From Macrosoma leucophasiata (Eukaryota; Arthropoda; Insecta; Lepidoptera; Hedylidae), in NCBI GenBank assembly GCA_036365455.1, contig JAWQUS010000017.1:4278001-4342000 (forward strand): 64,000 nt of DNA, read 5' to 3'. The notes below the pieces were generated by a model, which searched no databases, had not been told where the DNA came from, and saw only the letters and a program-made list of their open reading frames with translations. A program made the position numbers and the translations under genes. This document shows positions 32,374-64,000 of the stretch, piece by piece. Each line of letters starts with the position of its first letter. Within the stretch, counting starts at the first letter, position 1.

Positions 32374-32826
32374 TTCCACGTAATTTTGCCATTTCTAAGA
32401 CTAGTTCTTTCTACGCCTCTGTGACATATTTTCTCATCGCCCGGTTGAAACCGATCAGCCCTGGCGTTCCTGGCTCGAGCTGCAAATTCCACGTTATTTT
32501 GCCATTTCTAAGACTAGTTCTTTCTACGCCTCTGTGACAATTTTTCTCATCGCCCGATTTGAAACCGATCAGCCCTGGCGTTCCTGGCTCGAGCTGCAAA
32601 TTCCACGTAATTTTGCCATTTCTAAGACTAGTTCTTTCTACGCCTCTGTGACAATTTTTCTCATCGCCCGGTTGAAACCGATCAGCCCTGGCGTTCCTGG
32701 CTCGAGCTGCAAATTCCACGTAATTTTGCCATTTCTAAGACTAGTTCTTTCTACGCCTCTGTGACAATTTTTCTCATCGCCCGGTTGAAACCAATCAGCC
32801 CTGGCGTTCCTGGCTCGAGCTGCAAA
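32374..32826. repeat. Minisatellite, 4 copies of ~113 bp
   Basis: Unit starts at 32374, 32487, 32601 and 32714, ending at 32826. Each contains TTCCACGTAATTTTGCCATT..AAGACTAGTTCTTTCTACGC..GAAACCGATCAGCCCTGGCG..CTGGCTCGAGCTGCAAA. Copies differ at only a few positions. 113 is not a multiple of 3, yet both strands stay open over long stretches, giving overlapping repeat-coded ORFs that are probably meaningless. It abuts the A-rich end of an S1 copy. Confidence 0.9.
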
Positions 32827-33091
32827 TGCGACGTAGAGGCGCATTTTTAATGCTAATGTAATGAGGGTGAATACTCTCGTGCAATTCTAAATAAATTGAC
32901 GGAAACCATTACGTGATTGGCGTGTGATTAACCCGATTCTCTTTTTGTGGACCTTATAATTTAATTAAAAAGCTAATTGGCTAGTTATTTCATCTGTTTC
33001 CTAATTTAAATGTCGATTGAATTTGCTTTTATGAATTGAGGGGCAAAAATCAACGCGTGTCAGTTTCTGAATTTCAATGACAATTATAGTA

Positions 33092-35246: not shown

Positions 35247-35329
35247 TATGCAGCTTCGTGGTGCACAAGAGATGCCACGAGTACGTGACGTTCACCTGTC
35301 CTGGCGCGGACAAGGGCGCAGACTCCGAC
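35247..35329 (+). CDS. Pkc53E: PKC exon: end of C1A domain (83 nt)
   Basis: Acceptor TTTTTGTCCACAG, donor GAC|GTACGT. Two bases complete the Val codon from 33713, then 27 codons follow: [20 protein letters not shown] ending DKGADSD. It supplies the remaining C1A zinc ligands (Cys, His, Cys, Cys) in the C-x4-...-H-x2-C-x7-C pattern. It ends in phase 0, which fits both alternative exons at 54916 and 55194. The acidic DKGADSD linker leads into C1B. Codon use is G+C-rich relative to the surrounding intron. Confidence 0.97.
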
Positions 35330-51530: not shown

Positions 51531-51908
51531 ATGGATTTATTTTAAGAATTATGAATTTTAAAAGACTTACAACTAATGTTGTTGGGATAGATGTAGAGAA
51601 GCAGCTAGCAAGAGGTGATGCGCTTATCACAAATAACCCTGTATATGTATATATTTTGGCCAAAAATAGTGTTTCAATTTTTTTTGTTATGGGAGTGATA
51701 AAATTAACGTTAAAGTTATTTACAGTAACCTTAACAAATATCTTGGTGCAACCCAGGCTTAGTGTAGAGCTGTGAGTGTAAGCGTGTAATTTTAATGAGG
51801 ATCTTTTCATAAACTTCTACTTTTTTTATTTTTGTTTTATATTATTTCGCATTAACACATGCTTGTGAAATATATTTTATTTTAAAAGAAAAATGGAAAG
51901 AAAAATTT

Positions 51909-51984
51909 GACTTCAGACGAGACTCGAACTCGCGACCTACTGGGAATCTAGTCCAGCCGCTCTTCCAATTGAGCTACTGAAGCC
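51909..51984 (-). repeat. T-family tRNA-like unit, array copy 1
   Basis: GGCTTCAGTAGCTCAATTGG start and TCTGAAGTC end on the minus strand. The first acceptor pair is changed from G-C to G-T-like pairing (GGCTTCA/TGAAGTC). Copies 2 (52216-52291) and 3 (52523-52598) share this change, so it predates the amplification. Confidence 0.7.
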
Positions 51985-52215
51985 CTGCCCGATTTGTCAA
52001 ATCTTTCCTTCACATCTATTGCATTGCTTTATGGTAGCAGTAGCGCCATCTACTACCAACTATGCTAGTTAGGCAACCGATATAATAGACTTTTCAGTTT
52101 ATTGAATATCGTAAAGAAGTCGCTTTTACCCTTAATAATTGTTTTATATTATTTCGCATTAACACATGCTTGTGAAATATATTTTATTTTAAAAGAAAAA
52201 TGGAAAGAAAAATTT

Positions 52216-52291
52216 GACTTCAGACGAGACTCGAACTCGCGACCTACTGGGAATCTAGTCCAGCCGCTCTTCCAATTGAGCTACTGAAGCC
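52216..52291 (-). repeat. T-family tRNA-like unit, array copy 2
   Basis: Indistinguishable from copy 1 by eye over the tRNA-like body. Confidence 0.7.
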
Positions 52292-52522
52292 CTGCCCGAT
52301 TTGTCAAATCTTTCCTTCACATCTATTGCATTGCTTTATGGTAGCAGTAGCGCCATCTACTACCAACTATGCTAGTTAGGCAACCGATATAATAGACTTT
52401 TCAGTTTATTGAATATCGTAAAGAAGTCGCTTTTACCCTTAATAATTGTTTTATATTATTTCGCATTAACACATGCTTGTGAAATATATTTTATTTTTAA
52501 AGAAAAATGGAAAGAAAAATTC

Positions 52523-52598
52523 GACTTCAGACGAGACTCGAACTCGCGACCTACTGGGAATCTAGTCCAGCCGCTCTTCCAATTGAGCTACTGAAGCC
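52523..52598 (-). repeat. T-family tRNA-like unit, array copy 3
   Basis: Same as copies 1 and 2 over the body; the downstream tail has one substitution (AAATTCGACTTC in place of AAATTTGACTTC on the plus strand). Confidence 0.7.
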
Positions 52599-52817
52599 CT
52601 GCCCGATTTGTCAAATCTTTCCTTTTTTTATTTTTCTTTTCTTAAAATGTGTATGCACATGACATGTGGCAGCCCTAACCACCTGGGCCAATAAAAACTT
52701 TTGCTCAATACAAACACGGTTGACAAACGAAGTTTAATATTGTCTTAGAGGAAATTTGGCGCTCGGATGTGTCGCGAGCGAAATGAGCGATATTAACTTT
52801 TATTTAACTTTTTTGAT

Positions 52818-54577: not shown

Positions 54578-54915
54578 ATAAATCTTTATTACACGTTAGT
54601 TAAAAGAATTATTAATATCACGAGATAAATTCGTTTTATTTTATAATAATGTTAATTGTTGTTGTTTGTGTTTACATTGTTCGTACAATTAAAATGTGCC
54701 TAATCATTGTTTCACATAATGTAAAAAACATAGTTTAAAACAAAATGTCGATCAGGCTAGGATTAGTCACTCCAAAATAGATAACATATTTTTACTAACT
54801 GCCAAAAATAAAAGAGAGAGAAAGAAAGACAAGAGACTAACATAGTAATAAGATTGCTACTTAAAAATGATGAATATTCAGTCCTTCAACGACGATAACA
54901 TGTGGTAATATACAG
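54578..54915 (+). other. Intron end before the alternative C1B exons, no repeat recognised
   Basis: The last 340 bp of the 19.6 kb intron. The acceptor is weak: the stretch before TATACAG is purine-mixed (ACGATAACATGTGGTAATAT) and lacks a pyrimidine tract. This is in keeping with regulated use of the following exon. Confidence 0.5.
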
Positions 54916-55027
54916 GACACAAGAACGAAACACAATTTCCGCGTTCACACTTACGCGTCGCCAGCCTTCTGCGACCACTGCGGATCCCTCCTCTACGGGC
55001 TCATCCACCAGGGCCTCAAGTGTCAAG
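54916..55027 (+). CDS. Pkc53E: PKC alternative exon a: C1B domain, first half (112 nt)
   Basis: Acceptor ATATACAG, donor CAAG|GTATCA. Phase 0 in, phase 1 out. It reads [18 protein letters not shown] then [19 protein letters not shown]. With the first codons of 57893 it completes the zinc pattern H-x12-C-x2-C-x13-C-x2-C. C1 positions 20-27 are LLYGLIHQ (Tyr at 22), identical to the text-book classical PKC C1B loop, so this is the orthologous, canonical exon. The size (112 nt) matches the equivalent vertebrate exon as I know it. Joined to the next exon (55194) as well, the frame would shift, because 112 is not a multiple of 3. Confidence 0.96.
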
Positions 55028-55193
55028 GTATCACCGGGGACACCGCTTCAACCTAACGCTTGTCTATTTCAGCTTGGTGATGGCGCTTTGGCTAATGTTT
55101 TATCGTTTTTTTCATGTTTCTTACTTTTCATCAGCATACCTCCTCGTCTTTGTCTGTAGTCACCCAATAACTAATCGATCTGTTCTTACAAAG
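55028..55193 (+). other. 166-nt spacer between alternative C1B exons
   Basis: Short A+T-rich intron, T-rich in its second half (TTTTATCGTTTTTTTCATGT, TTTCTTACTTTTCATCAGCA). The pyrimidine tract next to the acceptor (TCGATCTGTTCTTACAAAG) is modest. A frame continuous with exon b stays open from 55020 across this spacer. This may be chance. Confidence 0.7.
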
Positions 55194-55305
55194 GCCGCGT
55201 ATGCCCCACACAAATGGGACACATGGACCTTCTTAGCCCCAACGTTCTGTGACCATTGTGGCACATTGCTTCATGGCCTCGCTCAACAGGGATTTAAATG
55301 CAAAG
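55194..55305 (+). CDS. Pkc53E: PKC alternative exon b: variant C1B first half (112 nt)
   Basis: Acceptor TGTTCTTACAAAG, donor AAAG|GTACAA. Exactly 112 nt, phase 0 in and phase 1 out, as exon a. It reads AAYAPHKWDTWTFLAPTF then CDHCGTLLHGLAQQGFKCK. Seventeen of 37 residues equal exon a, including every zinc ligand, the invariant Pro (position 11), Gly23 and Gln27. Differences cluster in the strand before the first Cys and in the membrane loop: Tyr22 to His, Ile25 to Ala, His26 to Gln. The lack of stops, conserved ligands and intact splice sites argue for a used exon, not a dead duplicate. Inclusion should be mutually exclusive with exon a. I know of no report of this exon, but I cannot search. 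Confidence 0.9.
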
Positions 55306-57892
55306 GTACAAAAACTCCCGATGGATCCTCTAGATGGATGGAGTCCGGTGTAAAGGACTGACAATAGTTGTGTTAATGTCTAGCTGCCTGTGCATATTTG
55401 AGGCACTAACGAACAGGTTAGAACCGGAATCGACCCGGTTCTTAGATCCAATAGCACAGTCCAGTACCAACGAAAAAGATCCCTATCAAAATTAAGTATG
55501 TGAAATATTGAAGTGAAACAAATCCAATAAGGTTTCTTGTTCCTTAAATAGTTACTTCACTCTCGTTTTAATGTCTGTGTTTGTTATTTATTCATTTTGT
55601 TTGAGAAGTTTCTTTAGAAGTTTTACCTGTGTGTGGATGTTTAATTAGTTCGCTTTGCCCCAGTTTCCTATTAATATGCTTATCTGATGCACTGAAAACA
55701 ACTTTTCTTCGTCATAAAATTTCTTCGCAATAAGTTTATTGTTGTTCAAAGAATATGCTCATTTAACTTTTATCATATATTTTGTTTCAACATTACTTTA
55801 ATTAGTTTTATTTCTTTGAATGATAATAATCTAAATCTTATTTGCACAATCAATTTCTTCGTCAGTAAAATGCACGTTTGCGTATGGATCGCTAGTATTG
55901 AACAAATCAAACAATAAGTTTATTGATTTTGTGTCTAGTAAGGTATAAAAGGATAGCATTAATTTCTGTCATACATTACTTACTTACATACAATCAGTAG
56001 CCTAATTGATTGCTGTATCTAATATACCTAGTGCAGGGTTATCGTGGGTACATTGGTTAACTTAATATTTTTTTAGTACTTTATGTTTCAAGCATGGTTT
56101 TGCAGCTACACAACTCTTGCTTATTTATCTCTTTCTTACAAATCGTTATAATTATTATTTATTTTACTTATTTGTATGAAGTGACTTTTATGTAAAAATA
56201 CTCTCTGATTGGTATTCCTGTTTAAATTCTCCTTATTGATAATCCCCATTAAATCAAGATTTCCTAATATAGGAGCCTATTATCCACTTCAATATTCCGA
56301 TATATTCGAGCCAACCGTCAAAACCCCGAAATTTCGTTAGGCAACGTTCGGAGTTTGGACGATATTATTTTTATAATGACCGAGACAGTGCAAGTCATCC
56401 TTACACGTAGCTATTTGATAGTTTCATGAATAGGAAATCCATCTTTAATATTGCATTTTCATCAATTCTCTAACCTATTTCTAGCATGATGTATATATTT
56501 ATTAAATGTATATTACCTATCTGTTTTTTGTTGCACTTAGACAAACTAGGTCTTCTTATCGATATATAAATTTTTAAAATGTGGACAATTCAAGTGGTAA
56601 TTAGGTTACATACATAAATGAACCAAAAAACTTTATAGCACCTTTCAAAACGACGTAATAAGACGTGTATTAATGAAAGTCGCGGATTTAAAATTCATTG
56701 AGATGATGGCTATAACCAATGAATTTTGTGAAGATGAAGATAATGTTCAACTAGATTTTTTTCTTATTATATGTGCAACGAATGTGTAAAGCTTTGTTGG
56801 TGATAAAAACTCAACTTAACTCTATCAATAAGGACAATTAGTAGGCCTGAGTCTGACTGCATTTTGTTCACATGTTGCTATAGTAGTTAATGTTTCTATA
56901 GCGTTTCCTTTGTGTGTATATGTTTGTCTTAAATTGCACGAATGATATTCTCCTTTTTATATAGGTACATTATACACGCAACTGCATTATTGATCGGTAT
57001 TTATATGGTTATTGTTTTTTTTATGAAACATAACATATTAAGAAAAACTACACTTTACTATAATGCTTTGTAAGATAAACAGCTAAGTGTCTAAACGAAA
57101 GGAGCATTCAAGCAACTGATACACTTGACATAACGAATCAGAAGGTAGCAATTATGGCAAAGATATCCAGTATCTCAATAACAAATTGACTTAAAGGATT
57201 GATGAAATAGACACTTACAATAGATATTTTAACAGTCTGAGTAAAACTTAATATTATCAATCCGTATTCCAAAATTGTTTGATGTTCATTAAATTACTTA
57301 AAACTTATGATAAAGAACGAAACCATTTGAAGTTTCTTAAAATGCTTTTCGTATTATCGTTCCACGATGCAGCTGTGTGTATTCTCAAATCATCTTTAAC
57401 TGAAAGTTTTTCTGCAGCCTCATTCAAAGTAAGTATAAGTATTTAAAGAAGTACATTAAAAGATGTTCAAGTTGCCATGAACAATTTTCAACTTGGCAAC
57501 TTTGCAATTAGTTGTGCATTTTTCTTTAATAAACTTGTTGAAGAAACTCCCTCGGTGAATGATAAAGTGAATCAACTTAGGAGTTAATGCTTTAATATAT
57601 CACAATGTAATTATATTTTAAACTCTTAAATTGGCAATTAAAATTAAGAAATTAGAAAGATTATTTTAATTAACTACGTTCTATATCGCTCTAAGTAGGT
57701 AAGTGATAAGGAACGTCTTTTATAAATGACAGATGTAAGGTTTAATTGAAATAAACTGATAATAAATTAATAAGTCTCTTACTTAAAACTAACTTAGGGT
57801 AGGAAATTTAATGTAGTAAGTATGAGGGTAAACGATTTTAAAATTAAATACGAGTAGTTCAAGTGTAAATTAATAAAGCTTGGTGTATACAG
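55306..57892 (+). other. 2.6 kb PKC intron without recognisable repeats
   Basis: A+T-rich intron following the alternative exons. Unlike nearly every other interval of this size in the window, I find no S1-S4 copy, Helitron, LINE tail or T unit in it. It could contain cis-elements that choose between exons a and b. No third C1B-like exon (FCDHCG-type coding) is visible. Confidence 0.65.
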
Positions 57893-58021
57893 CATGCGAC
57901 ATGAACGTGCACAAGCGGTGCGAGGAGTCCGTGCCGAATCTGTGCGGCTGCGACCACACGGAGAGGCGCGGCCGCATCCAACTCCTCGTGTCTTGCCATG
58001 GAAATAAGCTCACCGTTGAAG
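57893..58021 (+). CDS. Pkc53E: PKC exon: C1B second half and C1B-C2 linker (129 nt)
   Basis: Acceptor GGTGTATACAG, donor GAAG|GTAATA. Enters in phase 1 (G plus CA gives Ala) and leaves in phase 1. It reads [20 protein letters not shown], then [20 protein letters not shown] and TVE. It supplies the last zinc ligands (Cys, His, Cys, Cys) shared by both alternative first halves. RRGRIQL is the first strand of the C2 domain. The 129-nt size is that of the corresponding vertebrate classical PKC exon as I know it. Confidence 0.97.
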
Positions 58022-59607: not shown

Positions 59608-59928
59608 GTGTGGGACTGGGACCGCACCTCCCGAAACGACTTTATGGGCTCTCTGTCCTTCGGTATCTCTGAGCTTATGAAAGCACCCGCCGAAGGTTGG
59701 TTCAAACTGCTCACCCAAGAAGAAGGGGACTTTTACAACGTGCCGGTACCGGAAGAGGGCACGGATCTCGCCCAGCTGAAGAACCAGATGAGGGCGACCA
59801 GCGTAGGTGCTCGCAGGGCCCCGCCACCGCCAGACCGAGAAGTCCCGCATAATATGGCCGCCGCTGACGTCATCAGGGCTTCGGACTTCAACTTCATTAT
59901 GGTGCTCGGAAAGGGATCTTTTGGGAAG
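59608..59928 (+). CDS. Pkc53E: PKC exon: end of C2, V3 hinge, start of kinase (321 nt)
   Basis: Acceptor GGAATTTTCCAG, donor AAG|GTAAGG, phase 0 on both sides, 107 codons. It opens [20 protein letters not shown] with the remaining three Ca2+-binding aspartates (DWD and ND). The C2 end is [20 protein letters not shown]. The V3 hinge (about 45 residues, Pro/Arg-rich around [11 protein letters not shown]) contains the usual cleavage-prone region. Kinase subdomain I begins [15 protein letters not shown], with the glycine-rich ATP loop GKGSFG. The next exon supplies the following Val. Confidence 0.98.
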
Positions 59929-60617: not shown

Positions 60618-60791
60618 GTAATGCTGGCAGAGCGTCGCGGCACGGACGAGTTGTACGCCATCAAAATACTGAAGAAAGACATCATCATTCAAGACGACGA
60701 CGTGGAGTGCACGATGGTGGAGAAACGGGTGCTGGCTCTCAGCACCAAGCCACCGTTCCTTGTTCAACTACACTCTTGCTTCCAGACTATG
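60618..60791 (+). CDS. Pkc53E: PKC exon: kinase N-lobe, VAIK lysine and helix C (174 nt)
   Basis: Acceptor CAAATTACAG, donor ATG|GTGAGA, phase 0 both sides, 58 codons. It reads [58 protein letters not shown]. The ATP-anchoring Lys is in AIK and the helix-C Glu in TMVEKRV, so the salt-bridge pair of an active kinase is intact. The DDDVECTM motif is typical of classical PKCs. Confidence 0.98.
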
Positions 60792-62152: not shown

Positions 62153-62247
62153 AAAAATTGTTCGTTGAAATTTGCCTGAAAGTTGGTTTACAGGCTTCTA
62201 ATGTTATTTTATCTATTGATTTTGGACAAAAAATCAATACGCTGTCT

Positions 62248-62955
62248 AAATGTAAATCCAAGATGGCGGCTGCATGGAGTTGTCAACTTTTTCGTCATGG
62301 GTGTCGTTTTCATGGTTCTTGAGGGTGTTGAATTCGATAGTGGTGTCAAAATGTAAATCCAAGATGGCGGCTGCATGAAGTTGTCAACTTTTTCGTCATG
62401 GGTGTCGTTTTCATGGTTCTTGAGGGTGTTGAATTCGATAGTGGTGTCAAAATGTAAATCCAAGGTGGTGGCTGCATGGAGTTGACATCTTTTTCGTCAT
62501 GGGTGTCGTTTTCATGGTTCTTGAGGGTGTTGAATTTGATAGTGGTGTCAAAATGTAAATCCAAGTTGGCGGCTGCATGGAGTTGACAACTTTTTCGTCA
62601 TGGGTGTCGTTTTCGTGGTTCTTGAGGGTGTTGAATCCGATAGTACTGTCAAAATGTAAATCGAAGATGGCGACTGCATGGAGTTGTCAACTTTTTCGTC
62701 ATGGGTGTCGTTGTCATGGTTCTTGAGGGTGTTAAATTCGACAGTGGTGTCAAAATGTAAATCCAAGATGGCGGCTGCATGGAGTTGTCAACTTTTTCGT
62801 CATGGGTGTCGTTTTCATGGTTCTTGAGGGTGTTGAATCCGATAGTACTGTCAAAATGTAAATCAAAGATGGCGGCTGCATGGAGCTATCAACTTTTTCG
62901 TCATGGGTGTCGTTGTCATGGTTCTTGAGGGTGTTGAATTCGATAGTGGTGTCAA
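62248..62955. repeat. Tandem array, 7 copies of exactly 101 bp
   Basis: AAATGTAAATC starts at 62248, 62349, 62450, 62551, 62652, 62753 and 62854, with the next at 62955 broken. Each unit reads AAGATGGCGGCTGCATGGAG, CTTTTTCGTCATGGGTGTCG and GGTTCTTGAGGGTGTTGAAT. Units differ by a few substitutions and no indels. The minus-strand ORFs over it are periodic by-products: 101 is not a multiple of 3, so the repeat is read in all frames. Confidence 0.95.
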
Positions 62956-63454
62956 AATATTAATCGTTGTTAATCGGGCCGTTCCGTTATGGAAAGTTTC
63001 TCATTCCTGAACTAAACAGTATAAAAATTCGTATACAGGCTCATGATTAGGAATAGTAAAAATGATCTGTTTAAGTGAAATGAACAAAATTTCCCCCAAA
63101 ATAAAAAATGGAAGGGTACTGTTTGTATGGAATTGAGGTTAAAATTTGTGTGGGATTTTTGGTAGTTTCTAAGTTAGAGACTTGAAAAGTGATGTTCCAG
63201 TCTTTCTGTTAGGAATAAAAAAATCGGTACCGCTTCAGTGTTTTGCCAAAATCACCCTTAAACTTTCAAATATTTAACTTTTAAAAGTTAAAATAGAGAT
63301 AGATAAATAGAGCTTTTGAAGTTATAGACGTGATTAAGTACTCCACATATAGACACGCGACGGGAAACTTGATTAGGACATTTCCATGGGATTGTAAAAT
63401 TTAAACTATTTATAAAACGACATCCACGCGGGCGACGCCGCGGGCAACAGCTAG

Positions 63455-63665: not shown

Positions 63666-64000
<335 letters not shown>

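Follow-up and report, generated by a model that had tools for sequence, protein, structure and literature searches.

Twin C1B exons in a Pkc53E-like PKC gene of Macrosoma leucophasiata and their probable exchange by splicing

The PKC gene in the window

The window, meaning the whole 64-kb stretch of DNA that was analysed, carries on its + strand part of a PKC gene in which C1A, C1B, calcium C2 and kinase follow one another in the order of a classical PKC. Residues of C1 are numbered below with the first His counted as position 1, and two of the exons are called a and b. The features, in positions of the window, are:

35247..35329, + strand: exon for the second half of C1A, 27 residues encoded, phase 0 out; upstream partner of exons a and b
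54916..55027, + strand: exon a, canonical first half of C1B with F3 and Y22; 112 nt, phase 0 in and phase 1 out
55028..55193, + strand: intron between exons a and b, 166 nt
55135..55193, + strand: possible 5' extension of exon b through a cryptic AG before 55135, proposed from sequence only
55194..55305, + strand: exon b, variant first half of C1B with W3 and H22; 112 nt, phase 0 in and phase 1 out
57893..58021, + strand: common downstream exon, encoding the second C1B half and the beginning of C2
58844..59040, + strand: C2 domain exon
59608..59928, + strand: last part of C2, hinge and beginning of the kinase (GKGSFGK)
60618..60791, + strand: kinase exon
63666..63757, + strand: kinase exon; the gene continues beyond the window end

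An intron of 19586 nt separates position 35329 from exon a. The pseudosubstrate, the first half of C1A and the end of the kinase were not found within the 64-kb window. Over the shared part of the protein (304 residues), lepidopteran proteins, at 92-97% identity, fill 13 of the top 14 places among those fetched, and the gene appears to sit among lepidopteran PKCs as the counterpart of Drosophila Pkc53E, a classical PKC. Its nearest relatives in the fetched set are insect PKCs that bear the name 'brain isozyme' or Pkc53E. Tandem arrays lie upstream of the C1A exon (32374-32835; 113-base unit, 4.1 copies, 96%), in the 19.6-kb intron preceding exon a (51832-52624; 307-base unit, 2.6 copies, 99%) and in the intron running from kinase exon 60618-60791 to kinase exon 63666-63757 (62243-62965; 101-base unit, 7.2 copies, 92% match).

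Anatomy and constraint of the twin exons

An earlier note on this DNA had described a and b as exons of 112 nt each, alike in phase, bounded by AG acceptors and GT donors and fitting between 35329 upstream and 57893 downstream. Coordinates, lengths, phases and splice sites are all as described, and the flanks are those of exons 35247-35329 and 57893-58021. Exon b translates as AAYAPHKWDTWTFLAPTFCDHCGTLLHGLAQQGFKCK; exon a likewise encodes 37 residues, and the two share 17 of the 37, the figure given in that note. Each also contains, as the note held, every zinc ligand of a C1 first half (H, C, C, C), while the ligands of the second half are supplied by common exon 57893-58021. Taken alone, each 37-residue half matches Pfam C1_1 (a, 2.3e-11; b, 7.4e-9), the completed C1B domains match it more strongly (a, 7.5e-21; b, 2.3e-18), and for the b domain, once completed, there are also matches among solved PKC structures.

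The two exons are adjacent, homologous, and equal in length and phase, as is expected of tandem-duplicated exons. A profile of the C1B half, made from 59 rows that include the window's own two and run against the 2913 six-frame ORFs of the window, recovers exons a and b (7e-23 and 5e-20). Its next match has an E of 0.6, which excludes chance for the pair, and no third copy of the C1B half is apparent among these 2913 ORFs.

Between a and b, nucleotide identity at codon positions 1, 2 and 3 is 21/37, 27/37 and 11/37. Third positions are thus near random and first and second positions are not, which argues that both copies have been retained as protein and agrees with the proposal that the duplication is old and both copies are constrained. 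The twin exons are real and look functional.

Probable use of one exon per transcript

With exon a alone, or exon b alone, the reading frame stays open over all 368 residues of the part in the window. When both are included through their main sites, or neither is, the frame shifts and soon meets a stop. The frame shift predicted for joint inclusion is therefore borne out; the length that it adds to a transcript with one exon is 112 nt, not the 224 nt once claimed. There is an exception on paper to this exclusivity: the intron between the exons holds three cryptic AGs, and the one before 55135, alone among them, keeps a plus b in frame. Use of a single exon, a or b, per transcript seems likely.

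How such exclusivity might be enforced was considered against several known arrangements. Incompatibility between U12 and U2 sites is not supported: there is no clear U12 branch point, the best match to TCCTTAAC within 60 nt scoring 6/8 before exon a, 5 before exon b and 4 before the common exon, and the donors were set against the U12 consensus by visual inspection alone. Steric exclusion was set aside as well, since its intron size limit lies below the 166 nt found here. The third candidate, competing base pairing within introns, found no footing among the 19 inverted pairs in 54716-57893, which are mostly AT-rich and of which none has an arm in the a-b intron; covariation is beyond the reach of a single genome. 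The acceptor of b has more pyrimidines (11/17) than that of a (7/17), and G at +5 is absent from the donors of a, b and common exon 57893-58021. Frame shift followed by decay of the wrong products would be the sole enforcement visible in the sequence.

Relatives and age of exon b

Three protein searches gave 157 database proteins (in the third, 120 of 514 matches listed). A length rule in two of the three excluded proteins longer than 644 aa, and the database is clustered at 90%, so that full-length a and b isoforms may share one cluster. Among the matches listed, at least 32 database proteins have a C1B first half with His22, making 33 rows with the window. Removal of seven same-species duplicates left 26 b-type rows for the tree, to which 21 a-type and 12 outgroup rows, hand-picked for spread, were added; three records that start within the exon (P0055-P0057) are excluded from the counts, and over the aligned stretch no residue separates the Heliothinae row from that of Helicoverpa.

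The 26 b-type rows comprise eight lepidopteran (the window included), ten hymenopteran, three hemipteran, two mayfly, one Phlebotomus, one damselfly and one other. B-type C1B is thus present in at least six insect orders among the matches listed, mayflies and the damselfly included. Beetles (five rows) and springtails (two rows) are a-type only in the chosen set, which proves little.

Positions 3 and 22 give the b type a signature. His22 is found in 26/26 b-type rows and Tyr22 in 33/33 of the chosen a-type and outgroup rows, Trp3 in 25/26 b-type rows (the exception, Cacopsylla, has Phe) and Phe3 in 32/33 of the others (the exception, a nematode, has Trp), a count that is partly circular because the a and b labels were assigned by eye and used these same positions. 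More broadly, across 158 C1B-like motifs from 159 proteins, position 22 is Tyr in 123, His in 33 and Phe in two. The tree is less circular than the signature count. It places all 26 b-type rows in one clade (support 0.981), and the clade survives without positions 3 and 22 (support 0.838). Each of the two splits was verified a second time on its unrooted tree, and with an alignment of only 31 residues the inner branches mean little.

The earlier note had asked when exon b arose; the b-type rows form one clade spread over six orders. Mayflies and damselflies belong to lineages that separated anciently from other winged insects, and the simplest reading is a single duplication that would predate that split. 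Were exon b instead a dead or dying duplicate in M. leucophasiata, its unbroken frame, its preserved splice sites and zinc ligands, the constraint seen at the first two codon positions, and its b-type relatives in six orders would all be hard to account for; we regard that explanation as scarcely credible.

Isoforms and gene models in the databases

Full-length b-type proteins, with both pseudosubstrate and C1A, are on record for Spodoptera X2, Nasonia X3, Phlebotomus X2, Ischnura X2, Cacopsylla and Cloeon. In several species they can be set beside an a-type partner. For example, the Nasonia pair, X3 (b) and X2 (a), agrees at 653 of the 671 residues aligned; its 18 substitutions all fall in the exon (residues 104-140), and an indel of 3 residues lies at 311. 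In Cloeon, X1 (b) matches X3 (a) at 667/681, every difference lying at residues 102-136. In Cacopsylla the differences between a and b are confined to 103-138, within the span of the shorter a-type record. The Plutella a and b records (533/601 identical) differ widely outside the exon and so are not a clean pair. The proposal of PKC isoforms with different diacylglycerol sensors is supported by the database records of Nasonia and Cloeon, whose pairs differ almost nowhere but in this exon.

A number of models depart from this pattern. Helicoverpa X2, a Heliothinae record and Parnassius (P0003-P0005) have their starts 36, 6 and 15 residues ahead of exon b, without C1A, and Danaus (P0029) has an odd N-terminus that lacks a normal C1A junction. 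Such records raise the prospect that exon b serves mainly to open the coding sequence of a short PKC that is transcribed from a promoter within the a-b intron and is devoid of pseudosubstrate and C1A. No stop interrupts the exon-b frame from 54909 as far as exon b, the frame has ATGs at 55080 and 55095, and Drosophila does have a short isoform, PD, according to the passages of PMC10318518. The starts in Helicoverpa X2, Heliothinae and Parnassius end in K before AAY, as acceptor read-through would. Against a mainly short product stand the full-length b-type proteins with C1A, found in five orders besides Lepidoptera (there in Spodoptera), and the a-type models of Pararge (P0048) and Leptidea (P0050), which begin in the same manner, 7 and 19 residues before exon a, and likewise lack C1A. 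Since a-type models share such starts, these look like models cut at the long intron. We consider a mainly short PKC unlikely; a start of this kind and cassette use of the exon could nevertheless coexist.

The models of Manduca (P0059) and Trichogramma (P0058) have exons a and b in one protein, joined by linkers that are unlike one another. They are what one would expect if a cryptic acceptor allowed both exons to be read in frame, so that the PKC gained an additional C1 half, and in the window the cryptic AG before 55135 would keep the frame. The extra half would presumably stand alone, lacking half of its zinc ligands, and these two are the only such cases among the 32 fetched b-type records in the matches listed. 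Joint inclusion of this kind strikes us as very improbable, and we retain the choice of one exon per transcript as the preferred reading.

In Belonocnema X3 (P0037), Andrena X4 (P0089) and Bombus X3 (P0127), exon b is joined straight to C2, the second half of C1B being skipped. The truncated, double-exon and b-to-C2 models could reflect either noise in the annotation or genuine minor isoforms. A different variant is seen in Trichoplusia ni X3 (P0054), in which LNMFGD, near residue 100, replaces the first half of C1B and no complete C1B is left, as if a micro-exon of 19 nt (a size deduced from the protein) had been used. The window has no match to an LNMFGD-like micro-exon with up to two mismatches allowed.

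Published systems

The closest counterpart in print is Pkc53E of Drosophila, likewise a classical PKC with isoforms (PB, PC/PE, PA/PF and PD) that vary in their C1 domains and that are held likely to differ in diacylglycerol affinity (PMC10318518). Decoded, the published primers for C/E read WQNVTF, like exon b in having Trp3, and those for B/F read EPFTYAG, which is a-type. Product sizes of 282 and 289 nt fit a homology-based placement together with one residue fewer (679 vs 678 aa). For exon b of the fly the comparison covers the primer, and the passages of that report are silent on a conserved twin C1B exon and on position 22.

The vertebrate PRKCB event we take to concern the C-terminal V5 exon, unrelated to C1B. 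A survey of genes with tandem-duplicated substitution exons has an entry for PRKCB / Pkc53E / pkc-2 and lists Pkc53E as carrying such an event; its passages leave the exon unnamed (PMC9741552). The twin exon was once put forward as undescribed, a view that does not survive the fly C1 isoforms of PMC10318518 and the Pkc53E exon event of PMC9741552; with the fly event already in print, it is not new in kind. The twin C1B exon as such, its spread across insects and the His22 signature did not come up in searches of an open-access subset of the literature, supplements excluded. The locus is a lepidopteran case of an event known from the fly, and its deep conservation and the change at the toggle are the points worth following.

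The diacylglycerol toggle and a proposed function

Position 22 of PKC C1B is a known toggle: it is Trp in novel and Tyr in classical PKCs, and it sets diacylglycerol sensitivity, as passages of two reports describe (PMC4756072, PMC9110374). The swap is thus familiar between genes, Trp for Tyr; here Tyr and His alternate between splice forms of one gene. Exon a has Tyr at the toggle; exon b, like all 26 b-type rows, has neither Tyr nor Trp but His. The strictly conserved P11, G23, Q27 and G28 are present in both exons, and P11, G23 and Q27 in 26/26 b-type rows. At rim position 25, exon b has Ala and the b-type rows A, S or T (26/26); Ile or Leu occupies it in 19/21 a-type rows. Because position 22 is the toggle, exchanging a for b probably alters diacylglycerol sensitivity, and the b isoform would have a changed, probably lower one.

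The explanation we favor is that of one Pkc53E-like gene with an ancient tandem-duplicated substitution exon in C1B. Each transcript would take a or b between the C1A exon and the common second half of C1B. Wrong products—both exons through their main sites, or neither—would shift frame and stop early, and mRNAs with a single exon would encode a full PKC. Exon a would give a classical C1B with Tyr at the toggle, exon b a C1B that keeps the pocket residues but has His22, Ala25 and Trp3, and the b isoform would most likely serve cells different from those that use the a isoform. In the fly, isoform use already correlates with tissue: by RT-PCR, PB is enriched in photoreceptors, and PC/PE occur in heads with and without photoreceptors, as given in passages of PMC10318518. 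The analysis establishes anatomy, frame logic, relatives and signature; regulated choice in this species and the affinity change with its direction are what we infer. Taken whole, with exon swap, altered sensitivity of the b isoform and cell-specific use, we judge it quite probable.

More tentatively, and as something less likely than not, we suggest that winged insects have kept a splice-selected His22 C1B since before the mayfly/damselfly split, by which the lipid threshold would be switched within one PKC gene. As histidine can be protonated, a His22 sensor might also respond to pH or anionic lipid. Should it bind diacylglycerol differently, insects would tune PKC by splicing rather than by separate genes, and the tuning would act through one residue, a toggle that has been studied in mammals.

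One further record touches on the age of the exon. P0091, a b-type PKC of 674 aa, lies on a contig of 2210 bases, too short for introns and so most likely an assembled transcript. Its identity to the other fetched proteins does not exceed 74% among the 14 that score best, and it might place exon b outside winged insects.
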